Of a stretch of DNA of 54,975 nt, positions 43,319-49,651 are shown piece after piece. The DNA is from Candidatus Nitrosopelagicus sp. (lineage in GTDB: Archaea; Thermoproteota; Nitrososphaeria; Nitrososphaerales; Nitrosopumilaceae). Made by a program: the position numbers and the translations under genes. Location of the stretch: assembly GCA_028345575.1 (NCBI GenBank), contig JAOMDR010000007.1, forward strand, positions 1 to 54,975, written 5' to 3'. How positions within the stretch are numbered: position 1 is the first letter of the stretch; the number at the start of each line of letters is the position of its first letter. The notes below the pieces were generated by a model. That model saw only the letters and a program-made list of their open reading frames with translations, was not told the DNA's origin and ran no database searches.

Positions 43319-43900
43319 TTAACCTAATGCTCTAGAATGTTTTTGTGTGTGTGGTCGTTCTCCGGAAAATTTACGTCGCATATGTCCAGATGGTCGCCCG
43401 TATAATAATTCCAAGAACCAACTCTCATGTTCAATTTCTTCCATGAGTATATCCTTTGCAATATCATATGTAGCAGGATCTTTATCATATGTCATTTTAC
43501 ATACGATATTCCAATTAACAATTGCACCCTGTTCAGCTTTTAGACACTTTTCCAAAATTGCTTTTATGTCTGTAGGATTTTTTGGTAATTGTAAGAATTC
43601 ACATCCAGACATTTTGGTAAATGCCTGTGCATCATTTGGCAGACTACCTCCCAATTGAAATATTCTCTCAATACAAGACTCAAAGTGACTTAGATCTTCA
43701 AGACGTGCATCTTCAATAATTCCTTTAATTCCTTCACCTTCCATTCCAGTACAATGCATTCTTAGATTTGTAAAGTAATAGTATGCAGTGAATTCAACAG
43801 ATGCATTTGTTATTAGCTGTTTCACTAGTTTGTCAACATTCAATCCATTTTTTTTCAGAACTTCAACACCAACAACTTTTGGTTTTTTTGATGTCGCCAT
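43319..43900 (-). CDS. Dps-like ferritin-family protein
   Basis: A 193-residue four-helix bundle. Candidate di-iron ligands: E36 (in ASVEFTAYYY), E69 and H72 (in RLEDLSHFE), E128-region AEQGAIVNW, and EEIEHESW near 162-169. The pattern fits archaeal DPSL/ferritin-like proteins that store iron or detoxify peroxide. A basic tail (RPSGHMRRKFSGERPHTQKHSRA) may bind DNA. Confidence 0.85.
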   Translation of the reverse strand: MATSKKPKVVGVEVLKKNGLNVDKLVKQLITNASVEFTAYYYFTNLRMHCTGMEGEGIKGIIEDARLEDLSHFESCIERIFQLGGSLPNDAQAFTKMSGCEFLQLPKNPTDIKAILEKCLKAEQGAIVNWNIVCKMTYDKDPATYDIAKDILMEEIEHESWFLELLYGRPSGHMRRKFSGERPHTQKHSRALG

Positions 43901-44039: not shown

Positions 44040-44942
44040 TTGAAATCATCTAACGAACAAAGATGTCCTTCTTGTAACAAAACCACACTGATAACTGATG
44101 ATAATTCAGGTGAAATTGTTTGTAAAACATGTGGGATTGTTTTATCAGAAGGAAGCGAGGCAAGTGGACCAGAATGGAGATCATTTGCAAATGACGGTGT
44201 TGATAAAAGTAGAACAGGAACTGGCACATCAATAACGATGCATGATATGGGTTTATCCACAGTTATTGGTGCAGTCAATAAGGATGCAACAGGAAAACCA
44301 CTTTCATCAGCAATGAAACAGTCATTTGATAGAATTAGAACATGGGACAGTAGATCACAAGCTCATACATCTATAGATAAAAATTTAAGACAAGCGCTAA
44401 GTGAGATGGATAAGTTAAAGGATAAATTATCATTAACGGATGCTGTAATTGAGAAAGCAGCATACATTTACCGAAAAGCAATTGATAAAAAATTAGTTAA
44501 AGGACGTTCAATACAAGGATTAGTTGCAGCATGTGTTTATGCTGCATGTAGAGATACAGAAACACCTAGAACTTTGGATAACGTCGCAGATGGGATAAAT
44601 ATTAGAAGAAAAGATGTAGCACGATGTTATAGATTGGTCTTTAGAGAATTAGATTTGAAAGTTCCAGTTGCAGATCCAATTAATGGAATTCCAAGAATTG
44701 CAAGTGTTGCAGGATTAGGAGAAAAAACAAAACGAAAAGCGGTCGAGATTCTTAGAAAAGCAAAAAAAATAGGAGTTGTAGCAGGAAAAGATCCTACAGG
44801 ATTAGCTGCTGCTGCATTATATCTTGCATGTATTACAGAAGGCGGAAATAAAACTCAAAAAGAAATTTCAGAAGCTTCAGGCGTTACAGAAGTAACAATT
44901 CGTAACAGATGTGCAGGTCTTAAAGTATTTTTAGAAAATTAG
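44040..44942 (+). CDS. tfb: transcription initiation factor TFB (canonical)
   Basis: 300 residues. Complete zinc ribbon (CPSC at 9-12 and CKTC at 28-31), B-reader/linker (TSITMHDMGLSTVI) and two cyclin repeats. It recruits RNA polymerase to TBP-bound promoters. The start is an unusual TTG: a TAG stop directly precedes it in frame, and a TATA element is placed 26 bp upstream, so it is probably leaderless. Confidence 0.97.
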   Translation: MKSSNEQRCPSCNKTTLITDDNSGEIVCKTCGIVLSEGSEASGPEWRSFANDGVDKSRTGTGTSITMHDMGLSTVIGAVNKDATGKPLSSAMKQSFDRIRTWDSRSQAHTSIDKNLRQALSEMDKLKDKLSLTDAVIEKAAYIYRKAIDKKLVKGRSIQGLVAACVYAACRDTETPRTLDNVADGINIRRKDVARCYRLVFRELDLKVPVADPINGIPRIASVAGLGEKTKRKAVEILRKAKKIGVVAGKDPTGLAAAALYLACITEGGNKTQKEISEASGVTEVTIRNRCAGLKVFLEN

Positions 44943-45915: not shown

Positions 45916-46009
45916 GATCAAGATAAAATCTAAATTCAAAATTACAATCATTTGAATAATAATTGTAACCAGATAACATGATATGACCACATAAGTTACA
46001 TCTAATCAA
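45905..46009 (-). CDS. possible 34-residue zinc-knuckle frame, perhaps the 3' part of a frameshifted gene
   Basis: A frame from TTG at 46009 reads LIRCNLCGHIMLSGYNYY and ends FYLDLMH. The CNLCGH motif is protein-like. It is in the +1 frame relative to the ATG frame at 46002-46088 on the same strand, which it overlaps. Together they could be one gene of about 60 codons broken by a one-base shift, or a translational frameshift. Confidence 0.3.
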   Translation of the reverse strand: MIRCNLCGHIMLSGYNYYSNDCNFEFRFYLDLMH

Positions 46010-46088
46010 TTTGATTTCCTAAACTCCATTTCAAAGCTTGTATTACTTCTATGTCGTTTGTCTTTTCAAGTAATTTTTTAATTTTCAT
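46002..46088 (-). CDS. possible 28-residue helical micro-protein
   Basis: ATG at 46088, stop at 46002. The peptide is a plausible amphipathic helix (MKIKKLLEKTNDIEVIQALK). CTTTATTAATC on the minus strand lies about 26 bp upstream, giving normal promoter spacing. See the overlapping frame at 45905-46009. Confidence 0.35.
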   Translation of the reverse strand: MKIKKLLEKTNDIEVIQALKWSLGNQID

Positions 46089-46128
46089 AACTTATTATAC
46101 ACTCATAGATTAATAAAGTATATTTTTT

Positions 46129-46205
46129 TTAGGTTTTCCTAACTTTTTTTATAATAATTAGTTAGTTTTACCTAATTTATTGTAAATATTATTAGTCATA
46201 GCTAA
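46129..46205. repeat. three phased TTAG-N6-CTAA inverted repeats upstream of the cold-shock gene
   Basis: Three 14-bp copies of the form TTAG-N6-CTAA: 46129-46142 (TTAGGTTTTCCTAA), 46162-46175 (TTAGTTTTACCTAA) and 46192-46205 (TTAGTCATAGCTAA). They begin 33 and 30 bp apart, about three helical turns each, and the last lies just upstream of the cspA TATA box. This looks like a multi-site operator. Confidence 0.6.
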
Positions 46206-46218
46206 TCTAAAAAATCAG

Positions 46219-46228
46219 ACATAAATAG
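46219..46228 (+). promoter_or_regulatory. TATA element of the cold-shock gene
   Basis: GACATAAATA centred about 28 bp upstream of the ATG at 46252. Confidence 0.45.

Positions 46229-46628: not shown

Positions 46629-49651
<3,023 letters not shown>

Follow-up and report, generated by a model that had tools for sequence, protein, structure and literature searches.

Three copies of the palindrome TTAG-N6-CTAA lie upstream of a cold-shock-domain gene (csp) in Candidatus Nitrosopelagicus sp., and they raise the question of which gene they serve and which type of regulator they might receive. Nitrosopelagicus and Nitrosopumilus are major nitrifiers of the ocean. In the literature searched, no transcriptional switch described for either genus was found, and in the literature covered for the box, mostly outside subscription journals, no description of a TTAG-N6-CTAA box in these archaea was found. 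The window, i.e., the whole stretch of 54,975 nt that was analyzed, had been read in an initial annotation as carrying a cooperative cold-shock operator with half-sites related to a second word, TAGTGCTAA. This reading is partly supported: an operator-like, selected array was recovered, and neither the cold-shock-specific role nor the link to TAGTGCTAA was. On the comparison of related genomes, the triplet probably belongs to an Fe and Fe-S regulon as an operator array of the iron type (DtxR/IdeR-like), captured by csp.

Position and spacing of the array

The three palindromes are real, and their coordinates are collected with those of the flanking genes in Table 1. The start-to-start steps of 33 and 30 bp correspond to 3.14 and 2.86 helical turns, with the middle site approximately 1.5 bp off phase, and the outer sites 1 and 3 are 63 bp or 6.0 turns apart. 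As judged from the DNA, the three-turn spacing fits cooperative binding.

Table 1. Features of the array and its two flanks (positions of the window)
Feature	Position	Strand	Remark
Site 1, TTAGGTTTTCCTAA	46129-46142	none	matches TTAGGNNNNCCTAA; 40 nt to the divergent ATG
Site 2, TTAGTTTTACCTAA	46162-46175	none	fits TTAG-N6-CTAA
Site 3, TTAGTCATAGCTAA	46192-46205	none	46 nt to the csp ATG
28-codon ORF in the place of the 96-101 aa membrane-protein gene of relatives	46002-46088	-	remnant or replacement
TATA-like TTTATTAA of the divergent promoter	46110-46117	-	11 nt from site 1; read against the membrane-gene promoter consensus
TATA-like ATAAATA of csp	46221-46227	+	starts 15 nt past site 3
csp, cold-shock-domain protein, 64 aa	46252-46446	+	PF00313

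The single motif TTAGN6CTAA occurs five times in the window against 0.92 expected, a number reached by 1 of 100 shuffles, and it is not enriched genome-wide (30 vs. 68 for the reversed pattern). The triple cluster is found in 12 of 31 genomes of the genus, whereas the reversed-pattern control is found in 0 of 31. All 12 triplet genomes have the same steps (33 and 30 bp), and site 1 reads TTAGGTTTTCCTAA in 11 of them and TTAGGATTTCCTAA in the remaining one. In a thirteenth genome, G012, sites 1 and 2 are followed by a fragment of site 3 where the contig ends. The count of 12 leaves out two further matches, in G025 and G015, which consist of TTAGARGGTGCTAA repeats; these were read as pentapeptide-repeat coding and rejected as operators. 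The same repeats (L068, L069, and L137 in Nitrosopelagicus), which in L137 lie within a 718-codon ORF, are a source of false positives for the operator motif. L137, a record named as Nitrosopelagicus, also places the genome of the window with this genus: it matches a locus of the genus-mate G015 at 100% identity over 3,074 bp and a locus of the window's genome at 96% over 1,916 bp.

The initial annotation had also proposed that the TTAG/CTAA half-sites and TAGTGCTAA may be read by related regulators. The proposal was rejected, the word being at control level genome-wide (12 vs. 14 in G000, the genome of the window) and no TTAG-N6-CTAA being found at its six contexts in the window. These six copies (positions 88, 7727, 9196, 24512, 29113, and 30425; 6/6 on the plus strand) are an observation in their own right: six in the 55-kb contig compare with 0.36 expected and make up half of the 12 in the genome. 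Since three of them have the same spacing from csp as three copies in G025 (498473, 499778, and 504391), the cluster is conserved despite the control-level genome count.

A two-way promoter between csp and a membrane-protein gene

The array sits on a two-way promoter and, on the comparison of genomes, the divergent membrane-protein gene is its older partner. The minus-strand ATG of the 28-codon ORF lies at the canonical distance from site 1, and the corresponding ATG opens a membrane protein of 96-101 aa in G008, G027 (gap 39), G019, and G028, and ORFs of 28-49 codons in eight other genomes, including that of the window. A family-wide search found orthologues of the membrane gene in 116 of 250 Nitrosopumilaceae genomes. 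Upstream regions were covered for 70 loci among these matches, 69 of which have a located start (the start in L208 of G012 was not located by the script, and its gap is 40 by eye). At least one exact TTAG-N6-CTAA, the only form counted, is present within 160 bp upstream in 68 of the 69, and the sole locus lacking a box, L348, has only 11 bp of upstream DNA. The box nearest to the ATG is at 40 nt in 64 loci, 39 in two, 42 in one, and 46 in one, and additional boxes lie at 54 nt (58 loci), 89 nt (22), and 103 nt (11). Nitrosopelagicus and part of Nitrosopumilaceae have in common the outer boxes at 40 and 103 nt, a distance of six turns (63 bp). The membrane protein itself has no Pfam match and no convincing match in NCBIfam or PDB. 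At a contig end in G008 (L311, G008:C137), a second double box is followed 40 nt on by a partial membrane-protein match, which may be an additional copy or, alternatively, contaminating DNA in the G008 bin.

According to the promoter consensus, a TATA element approximately 29 nt from the ATG is preceded by the box at a distance of 11 nt for the membrane gene and 12 nt for the Fe-S gene sufC, i.e., the promoter is leaderless and the box lies immediately outside the BRE. In the window, the divergent side has this typical geometry (40 nt to the ATG and 11 nt to the TATA). The csp side is atypical, with 46 nt to the ATG and the TATA at 15 nt instead of the usual 11-12. The csp TATA-like element is conserved across the csp promoters of the genus, including those that lack the triplet, and its position predicts a near-leaderless csp mRNA with a putative start site. 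Beyond csp, a 23S rRNA gene runs on the opposite strand from about position 46636.

If the array were a dedicated cold-shock operator, whose three sites would cooperatively receive a temperature-responsive regulator of csp, it would be expected to accompany csp. In 10 genomes it does stand upstream of csp at a distance of 46 nt, and it is retained in genomes with a truncated divergent gene. However, the triplet precedes only 10 of 39 distinct csp genes of the genus and relatives (43 rows minus four duplicates), and 2 of 12 arrays, in G019 and G028, stand with the membrane gene beside the 23S gene where csp is missing. The contrary pattern named in the initial annotation, csp conserved with the repeats lost, was found in part: at the rRNA-side csp locus the triplet is present in 10 of 13 genomes and absent in three (G016, G001, and G021). 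In G016, csp directly follows the same upstream gene. As these three genomes retain csp and its TATA with the array gone, csp can manage without the array. Furthermore, related boxes family-wide precede membrane-protein, zinc-ribbon-like, and Fe-S genes. A cold-shock-specific device is thus highly improbable.

Two further groups of csp genes have upstream elements of their own. Upstream of the second csp paralogue (L033, L031, L032, and L034-L036; e.g., G000:C40), an inverted repeat of higher G+C content is conserved around CCATACATGAGCTTAGGCATGCATGG; it may be an RNA element or an operator, and Rfam gave no match upstream of L033. The csp copies L020 and L022-L025 form a separate group in the genus, tandemly duplicated in some genomes, with a common upstream block of approximately 120 bp (...CTTGGGGAGCATCGTGGA...) and no Rfam match upstream of L020 and L025.

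How the array was maintained can be seen in the eight genomes whose divergent ORF is truncated. The 24 bases in the half-sites of the array are 100% identical among them and the array as a whole has 95% identity on average, compared with 55% for the ORF region, 81% for the flank toward csp, and 92% for third codon positions of csp. The difference between 95% in the array and 55% in the ORF region indicates that the array remained constrained after the decay of the old gene, and the comparison supports its description as operator-like and selected. Most simply, csp would use the array; the alternative is that the constraint comes from a short microprotein. According to this alternative, the array now serves only the divergent side, which in some genomes encodes a membrane microprotein of 40-49 aa, leaving csp as a bystander. 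The canonical spacings (a 40-nt gap and 11 nt to the TATA) are seen on the divergent side and not on the csp side, the short ORFs have N-terminal and some C-terminal residues in common in several genomes, and the array is lost at three rRNA-side csp loci, all of which suit a bystander. By contrast, the ORFs of G000 and G018 are 28 codons long and dissimilar from the others past the first residues, yet the three sites are intact, and a purely divergent role is considered unlikely. The preferred reading remains that csp seems to have come under the array by lying on the opposite side of the promoter of another gene.

Other genes preceded by the box and its candidate regulator

A double box of two abutting copies (TTAGN6CTAATTAGN6CTAA) is found in 113 of 250 family genomes, and its reversed control in one (G174). 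Most of 27 other double-box loci have a Cys-rich, zinc-ribbon-like ORF of 46-62 aa 40-43 nt downstream, "zinc ribbon" being a putative label read from the Cys spacing; Pfam gave no match for two of these proteins. A direct search for this family yielded 30 loci, two of them without a start, and the box is present in 23 of the 28 with a located start, mostly at 40-41 nt (four loci have a gap of 32 due to an upstream in-frame ATG; L318 has N upstream, and L316 is likely the wrong gene). The exact box is absent in 18 of 18 zinc-ribbon-like relatives from g37, g38, g6, and g40, and two g34 relatives carry an exact and a degenerate box.

In the window's own genome (G000), the box lies 40-41 nt before the genes of SufC, SufB, an Mrp/NBP35-type Fe-S carrier ATPase (PF10609 and PF01883), a 4Fe-4S ferredoxin, and Thi4, and 37 nt before that of a ferredoxin-reductase-like protein. 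SufC was identified from its sequence, Pfam giving ABC_tran, and it lies 40-42 nt downstream of the sufC box, TTAGGATYARCTAA, in 29 of 30 loci. Overall, the box stands 37-43 nt before zinc-ribbon-like, sufC, sufB, Mrp-type, ferredoxin, and Thi4 genes. With sufB, sufC, the Mrp-type carrier, ferredoxin, and Thi4, the targets have the composition of an iron or metal regulon; no uptake transporter is among the box targets examined. In most genomes, the totals of TTAGN6CTAA-N38-42-ATG differ little from those of the reversed pattern, and the case therefore rests on cross-species conservation, by which the operator identity and ancestry of the box are well supported. In g28 genomes (L236, L237, L238, and L297; G061-G063), a double box separates a ferritin-like gene from a TFB gene, and L297 has a small Cys-rich ORF 41 nt from it. 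The ferritin-like/TFB pair of the window (43319-43900, minus; 44040-44942, plus) has no exact box in between.

The box resembles that of a known family of metal regulators. The IdeR consensus is the 19-bp TTAGGTTAGSCTAACCTAA, and the 14-bp TTAGGNNNNCCTAA is proposed for a single dimer (PMC8464063). The 14-bp form fits site 1 in 12 of 12 triplet genomes; sites 2 and 3 fit TTAG-N6-CTAA, but one or two inner G/C of TTAGGNNNNCCTAA are missing. Like actinobacterial IdeR/DtxR boxes, site 1 and its orthologues thus have the 14-bp form with TTAG/CTAA halves and N6, the targets are Fe- or Fe-S-related, and DtxR genes are present in the host genomes. Unlike those boxes, the sites here belong to archaeal leaderless promoters, always upstream of the BRE/TATA, with a putative binder, and the targets are Fe-using and Fe-S genes, not uptake genes.

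Public genomes were scanned for three TTAG-N6-CTAA at free spacing, which gave at least 120 stretches, 80 of which were listed and examined. Among these listed matches, a FeoB GTPase lies within 1.2 kb of the array in 34 of 80 loci, eight arrays are inside long ORFs, and 38 more have no FeoB within 1.2 kb by pattern. All seven neighboring small regulators that were tested belong to the DtxR family (PF01325 and PF02742). The FeoAB/DtxR arrays of Clostridia and relatives share the three TTAG-N6-CTAA and adjoin a DtxR gene, with steps that cluster at 29-30 and 34-36 bp. They are bacterial, and 14 of the 34 FeoB arrays among the matches listed hold TATAAT inside, which suggests repression there, whereas the archaeal boxes examined leave the TATA uncovered.

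DtxR-family genes are present in 242 of 250 family genomes, and G000 has two with PF02742. The closest chains are those of SloR/DtxR/IdeR for paralogue A and of MntR for paralogue B. Naming the regulator by phylogenetic profile fails, as DtxR is near-universal and neither paralogue nor the recognition helix tracks the box: genera that are poor in boxes or lack them have both paralogues as well, and the helix is the same there (13 of 30 DtxR loci gave sequence). Co-occurrence therefore does not name the binder, which we infer. Among 30 DtxR loci that were scanned, none carries the box ahead of the DtxR gene (L277 and L290 contain one at another place), and autoregulation was thus not seen. A MarR/SlyA binder, whose site we take to be TTAGCAAGCTAA, resembles the box in its TTAG/CTAA half-site only and was set aside after the DtxR/FeoB result. 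Archaeal DtxR-family proteins, e.g., MDR1 of Archaeoglobus, control metal genes and have multi-site operators. The archaeal DtxR regulons described by Leyn and Rodionov in 2015 may already include a thaumarchaeal motif.

In architecture, the closest known system is the Ss-LrpB operator with its three sites at about three-turn steps, which presumably differs from the array in site sequence and target set. Three Ss-LrpB dimers wrap about 100 bp of DNA, and sites in Lrp-type operators are clustered and spaced two or three turns (PMC2995911). An Lrp/AsnC-type regulator could analogously wrap the DNA of the three phased sites, as Ss-LrpB does on its own promoter, and the three palindromes at 33 and 30 bp within a 77-bp array agree with this precedent in step and scale. 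However, the TTAG/CTAA halves match the IdeR box, the targets are Fe-S genes, the bacterial counterpart arrays flank DtxR and FeoAB, and the phased layout is not common to the other targets, which have single boxes or abutting boxes 14 bp apart. An Lrp-type binder is accordingly rated as quite improbable.

Iron, sign of control, and fate of the operator

The DtxR/IdeR-type reading would make the array three single-dimer boxes on a bidirectional promoter. A metal-bound DtxR-family dimer would occupy each 14-bp site, dimers next to the basal promoter could cooperate owing to their three-turn spacing, and the recruitment of TFB/TBP to both genes would be tuned by iron or Fe-S status. In Nitrosopelagicus, csp stands on the far side of the array, and in one subgroup the membrane gene then decayed with the array kept. 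The operator identity, targets, geometry, and decay in this scheme come from the comparison of sequences described above; the regulator, the metal, cooperativity, the sign of control, and csp as a real target are what we infer.

Known archaeal activators, such as Ptr2, GvpE, and TFB-RF1, bind just upstream of the BRE. Because the spacing is nearly fixed and the targets use rather than import iron, activation is the bolder reading, put forward tentatively. A DtxR-family, geometry-locked activator docked upstream of the BRE, approximately 40 nt from leaderless starts, might turn on iron-using genes (ferredoxin, Suf, and small Cys-rich) when iron is sufficient; csp might be wired to the same switch, so that RNA chaperoning would follow iron and not temperature. 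Blocking of TFB by the bound regulator may be the alternative to activation.

Fe-S proteins are reported to be among the most expressed in N. brevis. With a box that marks Fe-S genes, ferredoxin, and two small uncharacterized families, an iron/Fe-S regulon becomes directly testable in these archaea, and the zinc-ribbon-like and membrane small proteins gain their first functional context. The locus further provides a clear case of an operator that would have outlived its own gene and passed to a neighbor.
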